Shown here: positions 7,806 through 51,730 of the stretch, one piece after another
Numbering within the stretch: the first letter of the stretch is position 1
Layout: each line of letters begins with the position of its first letter
Origin: Aceticella autotrophica
GTDB taxonomy: Bacteria; Bacillota; Thermoanaerobacteria; Thermoanaerobacterales; Thermoanaerobacteraceae
Direction of reading: 5' to 3'
Assembly (NCBI RefSeq): GCF_017357865.1
Contig: NZ_CP060096.1
Coordinates: 744,001-808,000 of the forward strand
Length of the DNA stretch: 64,000 bases
Notes under the pieces: model-generated
The model's database searches: none
The model's input: the letters and a program-made list of their open reading frames with translations, nothing else
Told to the model about the DNA's origin: nothing
Translations under genes and position numbers: made by a program

Positions 7806-8692
7806 GAAAGCCACGTGTTTATGATGAAATTGCAACAATATATTTTTATATAATCGCTTTTATATTAATATCATTTCTCGTATTATTAATTGGCTATATA
7901 CTGTATCAAGGAAGGGAATCATTAAATTTAAATTTTATAACAACAGCACCTAAATTCATGGAGAAAGGCGGAGGTATTGGACCGCAACTTTTTAATTCTT
8001 TGATGTTGCTTATCGTAACATTAGTAATATCTGCTCCTATTGGTATTGGTGCCGGAATATTTATGTCTGAATATGCAAAACCGGGTTTTTTATCTGAAAC
8101 TATTCGCATCTCTACAGAAACATTGTCATCATTGCCTTCAATTGTTGTTGGTTTGTTTGGGCTTTTAATTTTTGTTAATATGTTCCATTGGGGATATTCT
8201 TTAATTTCCGGTGCCCTTGCACTGACTGTTTTAAATCTTCCTGTTATGGCACGAGTAAGTGAAGATTCCATTAAGAGTGTTTCAAAGAACATAAAAGAAG
8301 CAAGTTTTGCTCTTGGTGCAACAAAATGGCAAACAATATCAAAAGTAATTTTACCTTCAGCACTTCCAGGATTAATCACCGGGATTATATTGACTTCAGG
8401 AAGGATATTTGGTGAGGCTGCTGCGTTACTGTATACTGCAGGTATGAGTACACCACCACTTAATTTTACAAATATAAATCCGATTAATCCCAACTCTCCT
8501 TTTTATCCTTTTAGACCTGCGGAAACACTTGCTGTATATATATGGAAGATAAATAGTGAGGGATTGGCACCTGACGCAAGAAAAATTGCAGATGGTTCTG
8601 CCGCTGTTTTGCTTATTATAGTTTTATCCTTTAATCTTATCGCAAGGTGGTATGGAACTTATTTATATAAAAGAATGACAGGCGAAAAATAA
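7802..8692 (+). CDS. pstA: Phosphate ABC transporter permease PstA
   Basis: A 296-residue second permease subunit with about six membrane helices and the EAA loop NIKEASFALGATKWQTISKVILP. It starts with TTG at 7802, overlapping the pstC stop (TTGA), with AGGAGGAGAAT upstream; no ATG sits better placed. The insert near residues 215-260 (proline/asparagine-rich) before the last helix is usual for PstA of Firmicutes. Confidence 0.95.
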   Translation: MRKPRVYDEIATIYFYIIAFILISFLVLLIGYILYQGRESLNLNFITTAPKFMEKGGGIGPQLFNSLMLLIVTLVISAPIGIGAGIFMSEYAKPGFLSETIRISTETLSSLPSIVVGLFGLLIFVNMFHWGYSLISGALALTVLNLPVMARVSEDSIKSVSKNIKEASFALGATKWQTISKVILPSALPGLITGIILTSGRIFGEAAALLYTAGMSTPPLNFTNINPINPNSPFYPFRPAETLAVYIWKINSEGLAPDARKIADGSAAVLLIIVLSFNLIARWYGTYLYKRMTGEK

Positions 8693-8736
8693 TATGATAT
8701 AATGTCTATTATTAAAGAAAGGGGAAAATCTGACAC

Positions 8737-9486
8737 ATGAAAAAAATAAAAGTCAGACAACTTGACCTGTTTTATGGTGATATACAGGCATTAAAAAAAG
8801 TAGATATGGATATTGAAGAAAATAGTGTTATGGCACTAATAGGTCCTTCCGGCTGTGGCAAGTCAACTTTTATAAGGACTTTAAACAGGATGAATGACCT
8901 CATAGATTGTGTAAAAATAACTGGAGAAGTAATTCTTGATAATCAGGACATATATAAAGATATAGACCCCATTGAACTGAGAAAACGCGTTGGGATGGTA
9001 TTTCAAAAGCCAAATCCGTTTCCAATGACAATTTTTGATAATATAGCTTATGGACCAAGGATTCATGGTATTTATAGTAAAAAGAAATTAAATGAAATAG
9101 TTGAGAGAAGCTTGACGGCTGCCGTATTATGGGATGAAGTTAAGGATAGATTAAATTCTTCTGCATTGGGCTTATCAGGTGGACAGCAACAAAGGCTTTG
9201 TATTGCAAGGACACTTGCAATAGAACCTGAAGTGATTCTTATGGATGAACCCACGTCAGCCCTTGATCCTATATCTACAATGAAGATTGAAGAACTTATT
9301 GACCAGTTGAAACATAAATATACAATTGTAATTGTAACACATAATATGCAACAGGCAGGAAGAGTTGCTGATTATACGTCTTTTTTCTTAAATGGTGAAA
9401 TCATTGAAACAGGACCTACAGAAGAAATATTTTACAATCCTAAAGACAAAAGGACTGAAGATTATATTACCGGCAGGTTTGGTTAG
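8737..9486 (+). CDS. pstB: Phosphate ABC transporter ATP-binding protein PstB
   Basis: A 249-residue ABC ATPase. Walker A is GPSGCGKST, the Q loop is in [13 protein letters not shown] (the PNPFPM segment is a PstB hallmark), the signature is LSGGQQQR and Walker B is [14 protein letters not shown] final H loop is present (VTHNM). Start ATG at 8737 has AAAGGGGAA upstream. It energises the PstCA channel and with PhoU relays phosphate status to PhoR. Confidence 0.96.
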
Positions 9487-40661: not shown

Positions 40662-42098
40662 ATGTCAACATTTCAAGGATTTGAAATAGTCAAGACAGGG
40701 CTTTACGCGAGCCAGCAGGCTTTAGACCTTATCGGTCACAACATTGCAAATGCTAACACACCGGGATATACAAGGCAAGTAATAGATTTATCTTCAATAG
40801 CACCTCCTACAACCTATGGGATGTATGACAAATGGGGCAAGGCTATTGGCGAAGGTGTTAACGTAGATGGTTATAGACAAATAAGAAATCTATTCTTAGA
40901 TATGCAGTACAGGCGTGAAAACAAATCTCTTGGGGAATGGGAAACAAAATCCGAAACCTTATCGGCTGTCGAGGCTATATTCAATGAACCCTCAAACAGT
41001 GGAATTGTCACAGTGATTGATGACTTTTTTAATTCTCTGCAGGAACTTTCTAAAAATCCGGAAAGTCTTACTGTAAGGTCCGAGGTAAGGGAAAGAGGTA
41101 TTGCTCTTACAGATACGATGAACACAGTCTATCAGCACCTTGATGACAAAGAGAAGGAACTAGATAGTACAGTCCGCAGCCGTGTTTCTGAAATCAATTC
41201 ATATTCAGACAGGATAAGCAAACTCAATAATGAAATATACAGGTTTGAATTATCGGGTCAACCTGCTAATGATTTGAGAGACCAAAGAAATTTGCTTGTT
41301 GATCAGCTTTCGAAGCTTGTTAATACTACGACATATGAGGATGCAAATAAAAATTTCAGGATAGATATTGGTGGACAGGCTCTTGTTGATGGGCAAAATG
41401 CTTATACAATGCGTGTTGATAATACAGGAACGGTAAAATGGGACTTAGCAGGTACTCCTGTTAATCCTTCAAGCGGTGTGCTGAAAGGTCTCCTTGATAT
41501 GCGTGATGGAGATGGCACAAATGGTATAAAGGGAATACCATACTACAAGGAACAATGGAATAAGTTAGCATATAATATTGCTACAAATTTTAACACACAG
41601 CATAAGGCAGGGTATGGGCTTGATAATTCTACCGGTATTAACTTTTTTACCGATTTTGGAGCGTATGATCCCACAGTACAGTATGCGCAGCAAATAAAGG
41701 TAAGCTCTGATATTCTTGCTGATGATGGGCTTCAAAGAATAGCTGCCGCAGGAGTTTCTGCATTGCCTGGTGATAATACAAATGCTTTAAAGCTTATTGC
41801 ATTAAGAGATCAGGGTAATACAGGGCTTGATGGTGCAACATTTGATGATTTTACACGCTCTCTTATATCAAACCTTGGTGTAGATGCGCAGCAGGCGAAT
41901 ATGATGCAAAAAAATCAGGATACAATGGTTAAACAGGTTGATTTAAACAGGCAATCGGTATCAGGTGTTTCACTTGATGAAGAGATGACGAATATGGTAA
42001 AATACCAAAAATCATATGCCGCATCTGCAAGGATGATTACCACTATGGATGAACTACTTGATACTCTTATAAACAGAATGGGAGTTGTTGGAAGGTAG
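40662..42098 (+). CDS. flgK: Flagellar hook-associated protein 1 (FlgK)
   Basis: A 478-residue hook-filament junction protein. The N-terminal D0 motif is GLYASQQALDLIGHNIANANTPGYTRQ and the C-terminal D0 helix is SGVSLDEEMTNMVKYQKSYAASARMITTMDELLDTLINRMG, both typical of axial proteins. Exported by the flagellar type III system with FlgN. GGAGGATATAT precedes ATG 40662. Confidence 0.96.
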   Translation: MSTFQGFEIVKTGLYASQQALDLIGHNIANANTPGYTRQVIDLSSIAPPTTYGMYDKWGKAIGEGVNVDGYRQIRNLFLDMQYRRENKSLGEWETKSETLSAVEAIFNEPSNSGIVTVIDDFFNSLQELSKNPESLTVRSEVRERGIALTDTMNTVYQHLDDKEKELDSTVRSRVSEINSYSDRISKLNNEIYRFELSGQPANDLRDQRNLLVDQLSKLVNTTTYEDANKNFRIDIGGQALVDGQNAYTMRVDNTGTVKWDLAGTPVNPSSGVLKGLLDMRDGDGTNGIKGIPYYKEQWNKLAYNIATNFNTQHKAGYGLDNSTGINFFTDFGAYDPTVQYAQQIKVSSDILADDGLQRIAAAGVSALPGDNTNALKLIALRDQGNTGLDGATFDDFTRSLISNLGVDAQQANMMQKNQDTMVKQVDLNRQSVSGVSLDEEMTNMVKYQKSYAASARMITTMDELLDTLINRMGVVGR

Positions 42099-42107
42099 GT
42101 GTAAAAA

Positions 42108-42998
42108 ATGAGAGTAACTAATAATATGCTTGTAATGAACTTTATGAACGATTATAATAACAACCTTGAAACAATGCAAAAAGATCAAAATATGCTGTCA
42201 ACAGGCAAGAGGATAAACAAACCCTCTGATGACCCTGTTGCGGTTGCCAATAGCCTGCGAATCAGGATGGACATGGCGAGAAATGATGCATATACGAAAA
42301 ACGTTGATGATGCAAAGTCATGGCTTGACCTTACAGATTCGGCATTGGGGCAGATGGGGGATTTAATTCAAAGAACAAGAGAACTTGCTGTTCAGGGTTC
42401 AAATGGAACGTTGACGCAGGCTGACATGCAAAATATAGCTGAAGAAATAGGACAATTGAAATCACAGATGATACAGGTAGGTAATACGCAGTATAACGGA
42501 AGATATATATTTGCAGGATTTAAGACAACTACACAGCCTTTTACAGACACATCAAACAGCTATAGCGGTGATAGCAGTGCAATACAATTTGAGGTTGGTG
42601 CAGGCGGCAGCAAAATAGCTGTAAATGTAACAGGTGATAAGGTTTTTGACGTATCAGGCGGTTCTTCACAGCTCCTTGATATGATGGATAAACTTAAAAC
42701 AGCATTGACAGCAGGAGATCATCTATCTGTAAGCAATATGCTTTACAACATAGACAAAGAAATGGAAAATGTTCTTGCCATAAGAGCAGACGCCGGAGCA
42801 AAATCAAACAGGATAGACCTTACAAAAAACAGGCTTCAAAGTGATAACTATAATTTTACGACACTTCTTTCAAAAAATGAAGATGCGGATATGGCACAGG
42901 TTATAACAAATCTTCAGATGGATGAGAACGTGTATAGGGCGTCTTTGGCAGCAGGTGCTAAAATTATACAGCCGAGTCTTATCGACTTTTTAAGGTGA
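42108..42998 (+). CDS. flgL: Flagellar hook-associated protein 3 (FlgL)
   Basis: A 296-residue junction protein. It starts RVTNNMLVMNFMNDYNNNL with GKRINKPSDDPVAVANSLRIR, the flagellin-like D0/D1 motif, and ends MAQVITNLQMDENVYRASLAAGAKIIQPSLIDFL. Joins FlgK to the flagellin filament. GGTAGGTGTAAAA precedes ATG 42108. Confidence 0.95.
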   Translation: MRVTNNMLVMNFMNDYNNNLETMQKDQNMLSTGKRINKPSDDPVAVANSLRIRMDMARNDAYTKNVDDAKSWLDLTDSALGQMGDLIQRTRELAVQGSNGTLTQADMQNIAEEIGQLKSQMIQVGNTQYNGRYIFAGFKTTTQPFTDTSNSYSGDSSAIQFEVGAGGSKIAVNVTGDKVFDVSGGSSQLLDMMDKLKTALTAGDHLSVSNMLYNIDKEMENVLAIRADAGAKSNRIDLTKNRLQSDNYNFTTLLSKNEDADMAQVITNLQMDENVYRASLAAGAKIIQPSLIDFLR

Positions 42999-43002
42999 TA
43001 AA

Positions 43003-43560
43003 ATGAATATAACAATACATCAGACATACGGCAGGATAGGTATTGACACTACTCCTGCCCAAATTTCTATAAAAAGCCCTAAGGCAGACCTTGAAATAAA
43101 ACAAACTCCTGCAAAGATGGAAATAGATCAAAAGCTTCCTCAGGTTCATATAGACCAGTATCAATGCTTTTACGAATCGGGGCTTAAAAATATTTTTGAC
43201 CTTGTCCATGATGAAGCAGCAAGAAGCAGAGAGATAGGTCTTGAAGCACTAAGGAAAATTGTTGATGATGGCGACAGACTTGCGGCAATAGAAAATCATC
43301 AGAATGTGATTCAACAGTTGGCACAAGAGACAGGCACTAAGGATGTCAACTTCAATGTTGACCTTATGCCAAAATCGAGGCCAAAGATATGGTTTGACGG
43401 ATATATAAATATCAATTGGAACCAGGGCGGTACGGATATAAATGTAATCACCCATAAACCTGAAATATCTGCAACACCAGGAAACATAAACATATACATG
43501 CGGGAATATCCATCAATAAAAATTGACTATGTAGGAAACAGCATAGACAGGAGGGTATAG
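43003..43560 (+). CDS. yviE: DUF6470 family protein (YviE-like)
   Basis: A 185-residue protein of the YviE/DUF6470 family, always found between flgL and fliW. It shows repeated beta strands with alternating pattern (AQISIKSPKADLEIKQTPAKMEIDQ) and a WFDG-INWNQGGTDIN block. Function unknown, probably related to filament assembly or flagellin handling. AAGGTGATAAA precedes ATG 43003, four bases after flgL. Confidence 0.88.
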   Translation: MNITIHQTYGRIGIDTTPAQISIKSPKADLEIKQTPAKMEIDQKLPQVHIDQYQCFYESGLKNIFDLVHDEAARSREIGLEALRKIVDDGDRLAAIENHQNVIQQLAQETGTKDVNFNVDLMPKSRPKIWFDGYININWNQGGTDINVITHKPEISATPGNINIYMREYPSIKIDYVGNSIDRRV

Positions 43561-43563
43561 GAG

Positions 43564-44016
43564 ATGCAAATAACCACAAAAAACTTTGGTATTGTAGAAT
43601 ACAACCCTGAAGATATAATTAACTTTGAAGACGGAATACCGGGTTTCGAGAAACTGCATTCATTTTTATTACTGGGGATGAGAAGTGATGATACTCCCTT
43701 TAGATGGCTGCAGGCTCTCGAAGATACTGATATTGCCTTTGCAATTATTGACCCGAGAATATTTAAGCCTGATTATTTTCCGGATATTAGCGAAGATATA
43801 ATAGAAGCTCTTAAAATAGAAGACATAAACCATCTGCTTATATATACAATTGTTGTAATCCCTGATGAAATAGAAAAAATGACTGCAAATTTGAAAGCCC
43901 CTATAATAATAAATGCTAAAAACAATAAGGCAATGCAGCTTATCCTTGATAATGAAAAATATTTAATAAAACATCCAATACTGGAGGAACTCAAAAATGC
44001 TCATACTCACGCGTAA
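43564..44016 (+). CDS. fliW: Flagellar assembly factor FliW
   Basis: A 150-residue FliW. Family blocks: FGIVEYNPEDIINFEDGIPGFE, FRWLQALEDTDIAFAIIDP and LKAPIIINAKNNKAMQLILDNEKY. FliW binds either flagellin or CsrA; when flagellin accumulates inside the cell, CsrA is released and blocks hag translation. GGAG at 43559-43562 precedes ATG 43564. It overlaps csrA by 20 nt. Confidence 0.96.
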   Translation: MQITTKNFGIVEYNPEDIINFEDGIPGFEKLHSFLLLGMRSDDTPFRWLQALEDTDIAFAIIDPRIFKPDYFPDISEDIIEALKIEDINHLLIYTIVVIPDEIEKMTANLKAPIIINAKNNKAMQLILDNEKYLIKHPILEELKNAHTHA

Positions 44017-44224
44017 GATAGGACAATCTGTAATTATAGGGGAAGACATAGAAATAAAAATACTTGGTATCGATGGCGAAAATATCAGTTTGGGAATAAC
44101 TGCCCCCAAAAGTTTATCTATAATCAGAAAAGAACTTCTCGACGTCAAAGATGAAAACAAAAAAGCGGCTGTTATAAACAAAGATACATTAAATAAAATA
44201 GAAAATATTATAAAAAAACGCTAA
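43997..44224 (+). CDS. csrA: Translational regulator CsrA
   Basis: A 75-residue RNA-binding homodimer. The N-terminus LILTRKIGQSVIIGEDIEIKIL is diagnostic; the RNA-contact segment is IRKELLD-type (SIIRKELLDVK). It should bind GGA motifs in the hag leader. ATG 43997 lies in the end of fliW, with CTGGAGGAACTCAAA upstream. Forms the FliW-CsrA-flagellin homeostasis circuit with its neighbours. Confidence 0.96.
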   Translation: MLILTRKIGQSVIIGEDIEIKILGIDGENISLGITAPKSLSIIRKELLDVKDENKKAAVINKDTLNKIENIIKKR

Positions 44225-44248
44225 AGTAATATAAAAACATATCGATAT
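44222..44248 (+). promoter_or_regulatory. Sigma-D promoter of hag
   Basis: TAAA (44222-44225), exactly 15 bases, ATCGATAT (44241-44248), six of eight to GCCGATAT. The -35 overlaps the csrA stop. It gives a leader of about 85-90 nt before the hag start. Confidence 0.72.
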
Positions 44249-44272
44249 ATATAATGTAAACAAAAGATAAGA

Positions 44273-44344
44273 AGTTGGCCAACTGTAAATCCAAGATAAA
44301 AACATAGGCATGGATGCCGAATAAAAATTCAAGGAGGAAGAAAA
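44273..44344 (+). promoter_or_regulatory. hag leader with two CsrA binding sites
   Basis: A hairpin GGCA-TGGA-TGCC (44307-44318) shows GGA in its loop, the preferred CsrA target. A second GGA lies in the ribosome site AAGGAGGA (44331-44338). Spacing between the two GGA is 21 bases. In B. subtilis a loop site and the Shine-Dalgarno site are bound together by one CsrA dimer. A palindrome AGTTGGCCAACT (44273-44284) lies just upstream. Confidence 0.7.
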
Positions 44345-45546
44345 ATGATAATAAACCATAATTTAAGTGCCTTAAATGCATGGAGAGCACTTACAATCAA
44401 TAACACAAACACACAGAAAGCATTAGAGAAACTTTCATCAGGCTACAGAATTAACAGAGCCGGCGATGATGCGGCAGGTCTTGCAATATCAGAGAAGATG
44501 AGAGGACAGATTAACGGTTTAAATCAGGCTACAAGAAATGCACAGGATGGCATATCACTTATTCAGACGGCAGAAGGTGCATTAAATGAGACACATTCGA
44601 TACTTCAAAGAATGAGAGAACTTGTTGTACAGGCGGGTAATGACACAAATACAACAACAGATCGACAAAACATTCAAACAGAATTGAATCAATTGGGAGC
44701 AGAAATAAACAGAATTGCTGGTCAGACGCAATTTAATACAAAGGCTTTATTAGATGGTACTTTAAGTACTACTGCACTGAATTTCCAGATAGGAGCAAAT
44801 GGGAGTCAGGTTGTATCCCTCACAATTGGTGATATGAGTATTTCAGGCATAACCGGCGGTTCAGTGACAACTGTAGGAACGGGAACAGTTTTAAATGTAT
44901 CATCTTGTTATGCAGTTGCAGATATATCAAATGACCTAAGTGTTCTTGATGCTGCAATACAGAGTGTTTCAGCACAAAGAGGCAATCTTGGTGCTTTACA
45001 GAATCGTTTAGAGCATACAATAAATAATCTTGGAACAGCATCAGAAAACTTAACAGCAGCAGAATCACGTATCAGAGACGTTGATTATGCTAAGGCCGCA
45101 TAAGGCTAAGGCACAGTCGTCCTGACTGGTAACGGTCAGGAGTATTATCGGGTGAATTGCTGGAAACCCCTTAGAGCTCCACACCCTACAACGTAATCTG
45201 AAAGGATAAGCGTGATAGGCCAAAAAGTGTGGGGATTGGGCAATCAGCAGCCGAGCCCCTGTACCGAAAGGTGGGGGAAGGTTCAACGACTAAGGCATAC
45301 CACCTAAGAGCATAAAGCTATGGTGATGAAGTCTGTAGGGTGAAGAATTTTACACCCGAAGTACCCGACCCCTTAAGTAATTTAAAGGGTGAAGATATAG
45401 TCTGGTCAATAGTGAAAACTATTGTGGCGACGATGGCCAAAGAAATGATGGAATTTACAAAAGACAACGTATTGAATCAGGCAGCGACAGCAATGCTAGC
45501 TCAGGCAAATCAACAACCACAGACAGTATTACAATTACTTAGATAA
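44345..45546 (+). CDS. hag: Flagellin, gene split by a group I intron (exons 44345-45085 and 45433-45546)
   Basis: Exon 1 encodes 247 residues starting MIINHNLSALNAWRALTI, with the D0/D1 blocks KLSSGYRINRAGDDAAGLAISEKMRGQ and the C-terminal LENTI-like LEHTINNLGTASENLTAAESRIRDVD. Unspliced, it stops after three more sense residues and is missing the essential C-terminal helix. Exon 2 (45433-45546) encodes MAKEMMEFTKDNVLNQAATA and ends QTVLQLLR, the universal flagellin C-terminus. Joining 45085 to 45433 gives DVD-MAKEMMEF with no gain or loss, making a 284-residue protein. Start has CAAGGAGGAAG. Without splicing no functional filament protein is possible. Confidence 0.93.
45086..45432 (+). ncRNA. 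Self-splicing group I intron (347 nt, no ORF) in hag
   Basis: The four conserved elements are in order: P (AATTGCTGGAAACCCC, 45155-45170), Q (CAATCAGCAGCCGAG, 45241), R (GTTCAACGACTAAGG, 45281) and S (GAAGATATAGTCT, 45391-45403). P4 pairs TTGCTG with CAGCAG; P7 pairs GACTA (45288-45292) with TAGTC (45398-45402). P2 is TCCTGAC/GTCAGGA (45120-45141). P9 is CAATAGT-GAAA-ACTATTG (45407-45424). Exon 1 ends in T and the intron ends in G, as required, and a U-G pair at the 5' splice site can form with AGTCG (45115-45119). A junction three bases downstream on both sides would give Y instead of M. Confidence 0.93.
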
Positions 45547-46142: not shown

Positions 46143-47168
46143 ATGTATATAAATTCTGGCCATTGGTGGCCACATAACAATTTAGATTATGGAATAATAA
46201 GCGGGTTAATTAAACTTGAACAGCAGGTTGTTGCTATTGATATTAGTGAAACATATAATGATTATTTTTATAAAGTTATAAAAGAATTTAATCCCTATTT
46301 TGTTTTTACCTTATTGGGAGCAAATATTAATGTTAATGTTGTTGAGAAAATAAAGAGTATGGGATATAAAATCGGCGTATGGATCGTTGATGACCCTTAT
46401 GATATAAAACAATCAATGAGGTATGCGTTCCATTATGATTTTATTTTTAATACAGAATTAAACGTAATTGATTATTATAAAAAAAATAAACCTTCATCAT
46501 TTTATTTACCTCTCGGTACAAATGAAAATACATTTAAAAAAAATTTTAATATTAACTATAAAAGTGATTATTTGTGTTATAGGTACTGGTTTTAGAAACA
46601 GAGTAGATATTATAGATACTATTTATAAAAATGTTAGTAAATATGACATTAAAATAATAGGAATTTTATGGGGTAAACTAAAAAGTTACAATCTAATAAA
46701 AGACAAAATAAAATTAATCGCTATTTCTGATGAAGAAGCATCTAAGTATTATTCTAATGTGAAGATAAATTTAAATATACATAGAGCTTATAATGATGAT
46801 ACTATTAAAAAGTTAAATATAGATAAAATTAAAGCTATCTCTCCTAATAACAGGACCTTTGATATATCAGCAGTAGGAGGATTTCAGATAGTGGATTATA
46901 GAGAAGATTTAGATAGATTTTATAAAATTGGTGAAGAAATAGTAGCATATGATGATGTTAAAGATTTAATAAATAAAATACATTATTATCTTGAACATGA
47001 TGAGGAACGTATAAAATTGCTGAAAATGCATATCAAAGAACAATAATAGAGCATCTTTTTGTAAATAGGTTAAGCGATATGATAAAGATTATAGAACGAA
47101 TCGATAGACAAGTAGTCAAAAATTTTGACAAGAATTACAATTATTATATAAAAATTTCATGTTTATAA
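46143..47168 (+). pseudogene. CgeB-like glycosyltransferase gene with frameshifts
   Basis: Part one (46143-46595) encodes MYINSGHWWPHNNLDYGIISGL and KIGVWIVDDPYDIKQSM, the DUF3880-like N-terminal half. Frame changes near 46570; part two (to 47046) continues VIGTGFRNRVDIIDTIY and ISAVGGFQIVDYREDL, a GT-B C-terminal domain. A second change near 47010-47020 is needed to read KIAENAYQRTIIEHLF to TAA at 47166-47168. CgeB-family proteins are found in spore coat and flagellar glycosylation loci. Both changes occur in A/T runs; sequencing error or phase variation is possible. Confidence 0.72.
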
Positions 47169-47202: not shown

Positions 47203-50200
47203 ATGATTGATAATTTATGTAGTATAATTATATTGACACACAATCAATTAGAATATACTAAATTATGCATAGAAAGTATCAGAAAATATACTGATGTACC
47301 TTATGAAATTATTGTTGTTGATAATGGTTCTACCGATGGAACTGTAGATTATCTTGAAAAGCAAAATGATATCACACTAATTAAGAATAGCGAAAACTTA
47401 GGGTTTGCTAAGGGGTGCAATCAAGGCATAGCTGTTTCTAAAGGAGAATTTATTGTATTACTAAATAATGACACGATAGTAACTAAAAATTGGCTTAAAA
47501 ACATGATAGATTTTATAAATACACATGAAGATGCAGGTATCGTAGGTCCTGTAACTAATAACATTTCTGGTGATCAAAAAATTATTACATATTATAAAAA
47601 TATTAATGATATGCATGAATTTGCTGGAAAATTTAATGTGCAAAATCAAAAGTGGAGAAAAAGTTTAAGATTAGTTGGTTATTGCATGGTTATGAGAAAA
47701 GAACTATTTAGAGAAATTGGACTTTTAGATGAAAATTATGGTATTGGCAACTTTGAGGATGATGATTTATGTTTGAGAGCACTTTTAAAAGGTTATAATT
47801 TATATATTAATGATACAACTTTTATTCATCACTTTGGAAGTGTTACATTTAAAAATATGGATATTAATTACGCTGAACTTATGAAAAAAAATGAAATTTA
47901 TTTTAAACAAAAATGGGGATATAGCCATTCATATTATTTCTTTAAGCGACCGGAAATCTTAAATAAGATTCCATTGAAGGCAAGAAATATATTAGATGTT
48001 GGTTGCGGAGCGGGTGCATTAGGTTTAGAATTAAAAAATAGGAAATACGTAAAAGTTGTTGGCATTGAACTAAATAATGATATTGCAAAAATAGCTAAAA
48101 ATGTTTTAGACGATGTTATAGTTGGTGATATTGAAAGTTTAGCATTTAATTATCCTGAAAATTACTTTGATACTATAATATTGGCAGATGTACTTGAGCA
48201 TTTAAGAGATCCATGGTCAACCTTAACAAAAATGAAAAGGTATCTTAAAGATGATGGTATTTTTATAGTTAGTATACCGAATATTAATCATATTTCAATT
48301 ATATTAAAATTACTAGGTGGCAATTTTGAATATGAGGATGCGGGCTTGTTAGATAAAACTCATTTAAGATTTTTTACTAAAAATACAATATTGCAAGCAT
48401 TTAGAGAAAGCAAGTTTGAAATTTTAAATATTGAGAATATCGTATTAAATAATGACTATTTTAAGAATATTGCACATATATTTTCTGACATTGCAAAGCA
48501 GTTGAATGTTTCACCAAATTACGAGGAAGAAGGAATTGCATATCAATATATAATAACAGCAAGAAAAAATATCAATTTATATAATATTACTTTATCTCTT
48601 TGCCTTATTACAAAGGATGAAGAAAAAAACATTGCCAGATGCATAAACAGTGTTAAGGATATAGTAGATGAGATAGTCGTTGTAGATACAGGTTCGAAAG
48701 ACAAGACGGTGGAGATCGCCGAAAGCTTTGGTGCTAAAGTTATACATGCAAAATGGGAGGATGATTTCAGTAAGGCAAGAAACATTGCCATAGAAAATGC
48801 TACATCTGATTGGATTCTATTTCTTGATGCTGATGAGGAAATTGCAAAAGAGGATATTGATAAGATAAAGCCATTGCTTAATGATGATAGTATTGAAGCA
48901 TATCTTTTAAAATTTATAAATTACGGAGGAAATACAATAGGGAATGCTACTTCAGAGGTTCATCATAATTTCAGACTTTTCAGGAACAATGGAAAGATAA
49001 AATATATATACCCTGTACATGAAAATTTAAGGAATGTCATAGAGAATAGAGTGCCTTTATATAAAGTGAGTGATATTAAGATACTTCATTATGGTTATTT
49101 AAGTGAGACAAGAGCAGAAAAGAATAAAACAGAAAGATATATAAGGTTAATATTAAATTACCTTATAAAACATCCTGATGACCAGTTTCAACATTCAAAT
49201 CTTGCTGTGGAGTATTACAATGCCGCTCAATACGAAAAAGCACTTAAACATTTATTGTTAGCTTCGAAAAATATAAACTTGAACACATTTGGTGCTACAA
49301 GAATTATTCGTTATTTAATTCTTACTTATACAGCGTTAAAGGATTATGATACAGCCCTTAAAATAATATATGATGCAAAGCCGTATTATAACACTATGGC
49401 AGATTTTCCCTATCTTGAGGCAATGATATATTTTCAGCAGAAAAGGTATCAGAAAGCTTTGGAAATATTTAAGCAATGTTTAGAGATAGGCGAATACAAT
49501 GGAATATTAGTTTCGATGGGTGGAACAGGAAGTTATAAAGCTCAATTTATGATTGGTTTGTGCAATGAAAAGTTAAACATGTTAAATGACGCTGTTTCAA
49601 ATTATATAGGAGCTTTAAGGTCTAATAGTACATTTCAGGATGCCTTTATAAGACTGTTTGATATCCTCATTAACAATGAAAAGCCTGAAGATATACATCA
49701 GTTTTTTCATAAGTATGTGGATACTGCTTCATACATTAATAAAATAATATTGGCAAGGCTTTATATAAATACAGGGAGATTTGATGTTGCAAAGCAATAT
49801 CTTGATAATGTTAATATTGATATTGAAGGTTTAAATAGTTTAAAAAGTATCATATATATGGGATTGAAAGACTATGAAAATGCTATAAAGCATTTTGAGA
49901 TGGAATATGGCAAAGCAAAAGAAGAAGCCAATTATAGAGAAGTTTTATGTTATATAATATTGAATGATATAAATAAGGCAAAGGAGTTGCTATGGAAGAT
50001 ATCTGATTCATCTGATAAAAAGTTGTATATGAATATAGTTGGTGAAATGAACGCAAAATTCGAAGAAGTCAAAGATAGCTATTTCAATTTGCTTGACCTC
50101 TTAATTAAATTAAAGGAATTTGATTTATACAATAATGTTCTAAGTTTGTATGTAGGCAGATTTGCGAGAGAGGATTATGAAAGATATGGACAGATGATGA

Positions 50201-50499: not shown

Positions 50500-50511
50500 G
50501 TATAAACTTAG

Positions 50512-50537
50512 AAGAGAGGAGTTCCTCTCTTTTTTGC
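50512..50537 (+). terminator. Terminator of the large glycosyltransferase gene
   Basis: AGAGAGGA, loop GT, TCCTCTCT, then six T in all. Confidence 0.85.
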
Positions 50538-50801
50538 TTTTAGTTATTACATCGGGACAGAGATTCTTCGCTTCGCTCATAATGACATAAAGTGGATAGT
50601 GCTTTCATGTAGCCATATTTTTACCACAAAATTTTATCAGCACCTTCGACGGTAGCATTTTAAGATAAAACATTTTTAACAAGTAAAATTGATGATATAA
50701 TTATTTTAAAAGGTTATAAAGGCTAAGGAAGTGAGTCTTTTTCATAGGATGATTCTTAAATATTAATTTATTTTTTCAAACTAAGATTGGAGTGGATTTT
50801 T
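50538..50801. other. Intergenic DNA before the DpnI-like gene
   Basis: About 260 bases with no gene. It includes AGATTCTTCGCTTCGCTCA and ATGACA (50570-50586), a form of a short dispersed repeat often seen in clostridial genomes (from memory). No clear promoter. Confidence 0.35.
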
Positions 50802-51587
50802 GTGAAAATTGATGGGACTCTTTATAATTATTATAAGAAGTATAGTACATTATACAAAAATAAATCGCAATTGATTAGGGTTATTTCTGAAAACTGGTTT
50901 AGAGATAATATGTATTGTCCATTTTGTACAAGGGAAAAAATAAATGCATATAATAATAATCATCCTGTAGCAGATTTTTTTTGTGATTTTTGTGGAGAGG
51001 AATTTCAGCTAAAATCAAAAAAACAGAAACTAAGTAATATTGTTGTTGATGGTGAGTATTATAAAATGATGGATGCTATATATTCTAATTCAGTACCTAA
51101 TTTTTTATTTATGAGCTATAGTTCAAAATTTGATTCTATCTGCGATTTATTGATTATTCCAAAAGAATTCATAGTACCAGGGATTATTCAAAAAAGAAAA
51201 CCTTTATCAAATTTTGCTCGAAGGTCAGGATGGACAGGTTGCAATATTATCTTAGAAAATATTCCTGATGCTGGTAAGGTCTTTGCTATTAAGAATAGAA
51301 ATGTAATTAATATGGTAGAAGTAAGAGCAAGTATAGAAAGAATAGCTTTTTATAGAGAAATCAAGGAAATTGAAAGAAGAGGTTGGATTATTGATATTTT
51401 AAATGTAATTGCACGAATTAAAAAAGAAGTTTTTAACTTGAAAGATGTATATACATACGTTCCATATTTAAAAAGTCTTCACCCTAATAATAATAACATC
51501 GAGGCAAAAATAAGACAGCAACTTCAGATACTTAGGGACAATGGCATTATTGAATTTTTAGGAAGAGGTGTATATAAAAAAATATAG
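50802..51587 (+). CDS. DpnI-like methyl-dependent restriction endonuclease
   Basis: A 261-residue homologue of DpnI, which cuts GATC only when its adenine is methylated. The catalytic region reads PVADFFCDFCGEEFQLKSKK (D58, K71), with zinc ligands C39, C42, C61, C64. The DpnI acid at the ExK position is Q69 here. Then PNFLFMSY, FIVPGIIQKRKPL, ARRSGWTGCNI and a C-terminal winged helix, IRQQLQILRDNGIIEFLGRGVYKK, that also recognises methyladenine. GTG 50802 is chosen for GGAGTGG five bases upstream; a TTG at 50787 would add five residues. No methyltransferase is next to it, as expected for this type. Confidence 0.88.
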   Translation: MKIDGTLYNYYKKYSTLYKNKSQLIRVISENWFRDNMYCPFCTREKINAYNNNHPVADFFCDFCGEEFQLKSKKQKLSNIVVDGEYYKMMDAIYSNSVPNFLFMSYSSKFDSICDLLIIPKEFIVPGIIQKRKPLSNFARRSGWTGCNIILENIPDAGKVFAIKNRNVINMVEVRASIERIAFYREIKEIERRGWIIDILNVIARIKKEVFNLKDVYTYVPYLKSLHPNNNNIEAKIRQQLQILRDNGIIEFLGRGVYKKI

Positions 51588-51597
51588 GAGATGATTT

Positions 51598-51730
51598 TGA
51601 ACATTAATATTAAAATTATTAACTGGGGATTTTAATTATGAAGATGCAGGTCTTTTAGATAAAACACATTTAAGATTTTTTACAAAAAATACAATATTAA
51701 AAATGTTTGAGAGAAGCGGAAGCCTCCTGA
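51598..51730 (+). pseudogene. Fragment of a methyltransferase domain (paralogue of the large GT protein)
   Basis: In frame from 51607 the sequence reads ILKLLTGDFNYEDAGLLDKT and HLRFFTKNTILKMFERSG, nearly identical to residues 368-405 of the protein at 47203 (ILKLLGGNFEYEDAGLLDKT). It has no start and ends after about 40 codons. It suggests that a second such gene once stood here or that a partial duplication occurred. Confidence 0.8.

Follow-up and report, generated by a model that had tools for sequence, protein, structure and literature searches.

The dpnI-type gene and its surroundings

The window analysed here, a stretch of 64,000 nucleotides from the genome of Aceticella autotrophica (the host), contains an uninterrupted open reading frame for a protein of 261 residues, running from a GTG codon to a stop on the forward strand (Table 1). 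An alternative in-frame start, TTG at 50787, lies upstream, and the GTG is preferred because it is preceded by GGAG and because of the alignment of N-termini. The protein contains both domains of the Gm6ATC-cleaving enzyme DpnI in Pfam, DpnI (PF06044; E 7.3e-64, 215.2 bits against a curated cut-off of 26.7) and DpnI_C (PF17726; E 7.8e-31, 106.5 bits against 23), and matched no NCBIfam family at E <= 0.001. Its sole sequence match in the PDB is DpnI (4esj and 4kyw), of which it is a full-length homologue at 43% identity. Thus, the preliminary description was right to place a DpnI-type enzyme at these coordinates. The predicted structure (pLDDT 91.2, pTM 0.87; 11 sequences) superimposes on 4esj over 240 residues at 1.6 A.

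Table 1 Features of the window that bear on the dpnI-type gene (DpnI equivalents in brackets).
Feature	Position	Strand	Basis
Shared left flank: flgK-, flgL-, fliW- and flagellin-like genes	40662..45103	+	Flagellin by Pfam; others read from the sequence
Terminator-like stem after glycosyltransferase gene	50510..50533	+	1 found, 0.3 expected
Promoter-like stretch, TATAAT at 50696	50667..50712	+	Shared with DNA directly upstream of dpnM in G401/G400
dpnI-type gene	50802..51587	+	PF06044 and PF17726 over cut-off; DpnI E 2.1e-66; model against 4esj Z 31.9
Catalytic domain, residues 12-183	50835..51350	+	PF06044
Asp58 codon (Asp53)	50973..50975	+	Alignment
Gln69 codon CAG (Glu64)	51006..51008	+	Alignment
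Lys71 codon (Lys66)	51012..51014	+	Alignment
Winged-helix methyl-reading domain, residues 191-260	51372..51581	+	PF17726

The terminator-like stem would insulate dpnI from the glycosyltransferase gene before it. A glycosyltransferase-like gene in the window (46143-47046) consists of two overlapping reading frames; its counterpart in G381 is a single frame of 349 residues, and the window copy is probably frameshifted. Just after dpnI, 92 bp (51607-51698) are 85% identical to 48301-48392 within a glycosyltransferase gene. By its sequence this segment is a relic of a second copy, and it perhaps marks the right border of a cassette.

A glutamine in place of Glu64 defines a clade

DpnI binds its metals through Asp53, Glu64 and the backbone oxygen of Leu65, and Lys66 lies near the attacking water, according to the accessible part of the structural report (PMC4117772). 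This agrees with the D...ExK site given in the preliminary description. The segment EEFQLKSK, quoted there as a Q-x-K motif, indeed aligns Gln69 with Glu64 and Leu70 with Leu65, while Asp58 and Lys71 are retained.

We collected homologues with PF06044 at E <= 0.001, which admits some matches under the family cut-off, from partly overlapping genome sets: 9 of 398 genomes sampled from the phylum of the host, 1 of 20 from its family (the host itself), 2 of 26 from the class of G381, 2 of 3 from the class of G087, and 11/395, 13/391 and 11/398 in further samples. From these, 38 distinct sequences spanning the catalytic segment were aligned, including seven further loci and DpnI. Second loci of genes already represented (L001, L014, L017, L086, L098 and L115) were dropped, as were matches that did not cover the catalytic segment and weak PF06044 matches (L016, L089, L090, L100-L105, L120, L121 and L123), all of which failed a profile search at E 1e-8. 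The aspartate and the lysine are present in 38/38 rows. The position of Glu64 is occupied by glutamate in 30 rows, DpnI itself among them, and by glutamine in eight, of which one (L088) is a distant frame with an internal stop that lies outside the tree. The other seven (the window, L002, L003, L012, L013, L015 and L099) form a single clade with bootstrap 100 and SH-aLRT 99, requiring one change, in a tree of 36 rows computed without the Glu/Gln column and without L088 (internal stop) and L118 (short). Judged from these sequences, Gln69 is more than a chance or stray mutation, being fixed in a clade of seven members. Since the glutamate that serves as second metal ligand is absent from the window protein and present in 30/30 other rows, we file the protein as a variant.

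Two further residues were lost in the same clade. Arg87, present in 29/30 other rows, is alanine in 6/6 Gln members, and Asn93, present in 30/30 other rows, is valine in five and threonine in one. We also considered whether the carboxylate had shifted to a neighbouring position in the alignment and rejected the idea. The residue beside the Arg87 position is Asp in the window and Glu in L002 and L003. L012 and L013 carry Gln instead, and an acid at this position is therefore no shared compensation in the clade.

The altered site remains under constraint

Twelve other catalytic, DNA-contact and methyl-pocket positions, taken from the accessible part of PMC4117772 (in DpnI numbering Ser17, Gln18, Asn48, Asp53, Leu65, Lys66, Asp78, Arg126, Leu129, Arg135, Trp138 and Gly140), do not vary among the six intact Gln members, in which 85 of 244 columns are invariant overall (12/12, p 1.9e-6). 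The same positions are conserved throughout the family, and the enrichment therefore reflects persisting constraint rather than a new constraint or function. The window protein equals DpnI at 9/9 base- and methyl-reading positions of the catalytic domain, which are likewise invariant in the six Gln members. The least diverged pair, L012 and L013, has dN 0.014 and dS 0.108, a ratio of 0.13; it is the sole unsaturated pair, the others in the clade being near or past synonymous saturation. One of the seven Gln genes is broken: in L015 (G341) a frameshift splits dpnI into two reading frames. This split gene (L064 9274-10103) sits at another location than the dpnI of the sister species G381.

A glutamine at this position has precedent in related chemistry. 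In the accessible text on the NhoI and Eco15I structures, Asn or Gln is said often to replace the acidic residue as an "equally suited" metal ligand, and Ca2+ is described on both Asp and Gln (PMC11347163). A review, in the part available, assigns MspJI and Mrr to PD-QxK and DpnI to PD-ExK (PMC12707154). The preliminary description had likened the window site to that of the Mrr group. The likeness holds insofar as QxK works in other modification-dependent nucleases, but the protein itself does not belong to the Mrr family in Pfam, where at E <= 0.01 it matched no Mrr or BisI family and gave, besides DpnI and DpnI_C, only a zinc-finger family below threshold. After the two DpnI entries, the solved folds nearest to the predicted model are Eco15I (Z 10.0 over 124 residues, 3.2 A) and NhoI (Z 9.4 over 119 residues, 3.1 A), both of the BisI group, at 7-16% sequence identity. 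As modelled, the window protein is a DpnI with a glutamine and not an Mrr enzyme, its predicted fold lying nearer to the QxK BisI group. No QxK DpnI is reported in the accessible texts of the literature searched on DpnI and QXK, a search that covered papers, largely open-access ones, and neither REBASE nor the annotation of RefSeq.

DpnI-type genes occupy the place of DpnII systems

In three comparisons a Gln-type dpnI takes the position that a whole DpnII system has in a relative. The sharpest lies within one genus, in which the Gln-type dpnI of G087 and G122 and the DpnII set of G048 stand between the same two genes. Flanking identity of 87-96% ends at the same two points, giving exact borders around an exchanged segment of 885 bp (G122) or 905 bp (G087) against 3,049 bp (G048). 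The second spans two genera of one family, the dpnI of G381 and the DpnII set of G176 each following the same flagellar and nucleotidyltransferase/HEPN-type genes; the right-hand flanks are unlike. The nucleotidyltransferase/HEPN-type stretch is 94% identical over 1,145 bp and the flagellar genes about 70%, which suggests a recent exchange beside the cassette. This gene group (L161 ~8042-9186 in G176, adjoining DpnII; L066 in G381, adjoining dpnI) was, from its sequence, probably transferred recently.

The third comparison involves the window. Gene order runs in parallel in the window and in G400 and G401, from a recD-like gene through comF-, flgK-, flgL- and fliW-like genes to flagellin, after which G400 and G401 carry DpnII and the window carries glycosyltransferase-like genes and then dpnI. 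The promoter-like stretch before dpnI matches the DNA upstream of dpnM over 46 bp in G401 (E 2.3e-7) and 28 bp in G400 (E 8e-7), the best non-self matches among the loci compared. A 30-bp match (E 4e-4) also precedes dpnM in G274, where DpnII sits elsewhere. The consensus promoter scan did not list its hexamer pair; we read the stretch as a candidate active promoter, and possibly as a scar left by a DpnII cassette.

The alternatives at one place found here are between species and genera, not strains. Of the host's family relatives, five carry DpnII, and in three of these (G408, G409 and G229) it lies elsewhere; for G341, G423 and G876 no same-place DpnII comparison was found. The preliminary description had called the nuclease solitary, which overlooks the chief finding that the gene occupies the place of relatives' DpnII systems.

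To see how DpnII is distributed, PF02086 was sought in 79 chosen genomes, 33 with dpnI and 46 without, the latter partly hand-picked relatives. At E <= 1e-40, a threshold set post hoc, it was found in 3/33 dpnI genomes (G449, G768 and G1180, the last with a truncated gene) against 14/46 without dpnI (Fisher p 0.028), and in 0/7 Gln-type genomes. Weaker D12 methyltransferases, with no target assigned, occur in G381, G341, G876 and G122; against DpnM, those of G381 and G876 are 24.5% identical over 257 residues and 25.6% over 78, and that of G341 gave no BLAST match. Complete dpnM, dpnB and dpnA are present in eight dpnI-less genomes (G048, G400, G401, G408, G409, G229, G274 and G176; the sets of G048 and G400 confirmed by Pfam), and DpnII is common in the family of the host. 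An active DpnII-like system has been described in extracts of Thermoanaerobacter sp. X514, in the accessible part of that report (PMC2933238); this organism is a probable relative.

Pieces of DpnII systems within 1.5 kb of dpnI (E <= 1e-3; flanks shorter at contig ends, and L088 contributing none) were found at 8/29 Glu-type and 0/7 Gln-type loci, indicating that DpnI has taken the place of DpnII outside the Gln type as well. A dpnA-like piece (L092 2484-3134, G1077) and dpnM pieces (L005, L007, L009, L091 and L095) adjoin Glu-type dpnI genes, and in sequence they resemble scars of replaced DpnII cassettes. At two loci (L084 522-2280 in G449; L087 1273-2905 in G768) a Glu-type dpnI directly adjoins an apparently intact M.DpnII-type methyltransferase that retains DPPY and is 41% identical to DpnM. 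Since both activities together should be lethal, one of the two must be silent or changed in these genomes.

A probable opposite allele of DpnII

We consider it likely, from the sequences, that the window gene is the opposite allele of DpnII and encodes an active nuclease for Gm6ATC. The reading builds on the two domains, the predicted fold, the retained residues, the clade, the purifying selection in relatives, the absence of Dam-class genes and the same-place alleles. The protein would be an m6A-dependent type IIM enzyme, cutting Gm6ATC as DpnI does and reading the methylated site with both domains. One metal would be held by Asp58, the amide oxygen of Gln69 and the carbonyl of Leu70, and Lys71 would position the attacking water. 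With host GATC presumably unmethylated, only incoming DNA would be cut, that is, DNA from DpnII- or Dam-bearing relatives or from phages grown on them. At one chromosomal place, the gene and DpnII would be alternative alleles that are exchanged as cassettes, with DpnI presumably replacing DpnII. Because Glu64 is invariant in 30/30 other rows, the change to Gln may weaken cutting. Also counting against this reading are the loss of Arg87 and Asn93, the broken gene of G341, the weak D12 methyltransferases of G381, G341, G876 and G122, and the differently placed DpnII systems of G408, G409 and G229.

The complete host genome contains no PF02086 (Dam-class) gene, in keeping with the suggestion of the preliminary description that the host avoids Dam-type GATC methylation. 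PF01555 matches the host genome at two places. One match is weak and falls within a 455-residue frame that reads as an RNA methyltransferase; the other, the only strong one, adjoins an MjaI-type endonuclease. MjaI recognises CTAG. The endonuclease (PF09568; L018 1414-3363, host contig C1, ~95-97 kb) contains an LQIK segment and is possibly another QxK enzyme, and the neighbouring methyltransferase bears an SNase-like tail.

The linked loss of Glu64, Arg87 and Asn93 on one well-supported branch could also mean that the enzyme is active in an altered manner, with another metal or temperature preference, by nicking, or at hemimethylated or other m6A sites. This alternative, which overlaps with a DpnI-like nuclease, is possible but the less favoured; the base- and methyl-contacting positions examined are all as in DpnI, which argues for the same target. 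A bolder form, similarly tentative, is that E64Q, R87A and N93V/T together rewired the site with a new property (metal, temperature or strand behaviour), that this lineage is exchanged one-for-one with DpnII at different loci in several bacterial groups, in the host genome downstream of a stretch resembling the promoter of the DpnII cassette, and that the pneumococcal mechanism, with cassettes passing between cells, is a general evolutionary route.

The same changes could instead belong to a DpnI that has lost some or all of its activity and is retained to bind methyl-GATC, blocking or regulating, with its winged helix and cleft doing the binding. A metal ligand invariant in 30/30 other rows is altered together with Arg87 and Asn93, and a regulatory role has been proposed for gonococcal Drg, an enzyme that does cut (PMC4269198, in the part available). 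We regard a pure binder as improbable. Asp and Lys are retained in 7/7 Gln members and a dead site would need neither; Gln is itself a metal ligand in the available account of NhoI and Eco15I (PMC11347163); and replacement of DpnII at the same place suggests a role in restriction.

An active nuclease opposed to DpnII can be set beside several known systems. It resembles DpnI of Streptococcus pneumoniae in both domains, in overall identity, in the tested base- and methyl-contact positions and in having no adjoining partner methyltransferase, and it differs in Gln for Glu64, Ala for Arg87 and Val for Asn93. The second gene of the pneumococcal DpnI cassette is dpnD, and no dpnD-like second gene was noticed here; the present alternatives also lie between species or genera, at other loci, and involve a Gln-type DpnI. 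What they share with the pneumococcal cassettes is a DpnI-type gene facing dpnM-dpnB-dpnA at one place, an alternation that is classic in pneumococcus (PMC3573125, accessible part). Drg/NmeBII, the dam-replacing gene of Neisseria, is likewise a DpnI homologue in a dam-less host, but its locus is leuS/dam; the gonococcal enzyme, Drg, cuts GATC only when it is methylated, in the available text of PMC4269198. The BisI and Mrr/MspJI groups share modification dependence and the QxK site, whereas BisI and MspJI enzymes read modified cytosine (PMC11347163 and PMC12707154, as far as available). From the sequences, the pneumococcal swap looks more general, extending to several bacterial groups. As far as the literature was searched and accessible, both the clade with Gln and the exchanges at one place in three comparisons are new.

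The clade provides a natural test of what a Glu-to-Gln change does to a textbook restriction enzyme, and the three comparisons show opposite restriction systems at one place. If the host is a thermophile, as we infer by analogy with its relatives, it may also supply a heat-stable DpnI.

GATC avoidance and nuclease-less winged helices

Among palindromic tetramers in 464 kb of the host, the scarcest are CTAG (0.10 of Markov expectation), GGCC (0.20) and GATC (0.33). GGCC is lower in the host than in the sampled relatives. GATC depletion was considered as evidence for the enzyme and set aside: all five dpnI-less relatives from the family are depleted as well (0.31-0.62), and G298 (0.49) and G274 (0.57) likewise, so depletion is no signature of a DpnI-type enzyme. 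That the scarcity of GATC in the host reflects a DpnI-type enzyme also cutting unmethylated sites is very improbable, given these relatives, the frequency of DpnII in the family, and a 2015 survey in whose available part DpnI-like genes go together with avoidance of GATC and with DpnII in other congeneric strains or species (PMC4687349). The survey, in that part, also leaves a puzzle: genomes with DpnI-like genes avoid GATC though the enzyme should be harmless to them. A DpnII past, suggested by the shared places and the possible promoter scar, would explain the avoidance.

Outside cellular genomes, 3 of 50,697 phage records and five loci on viral contigs matched, in the winged helix only. Six of 72,556 plasmid records matched, two being chromosome-sized Neisseria records and four matching in the winged helix only. 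These DpnI-type winged helices without a nuclease (L106-L110 and hits H1-H3 and H6-H9, from phage, viral contigs and Lactiplantibacillus plasmids) are possibly stand-alone methyl-A readers; the Lactiplantibacillus plasmid matches fall under a feature annotated as sigma-70 family.
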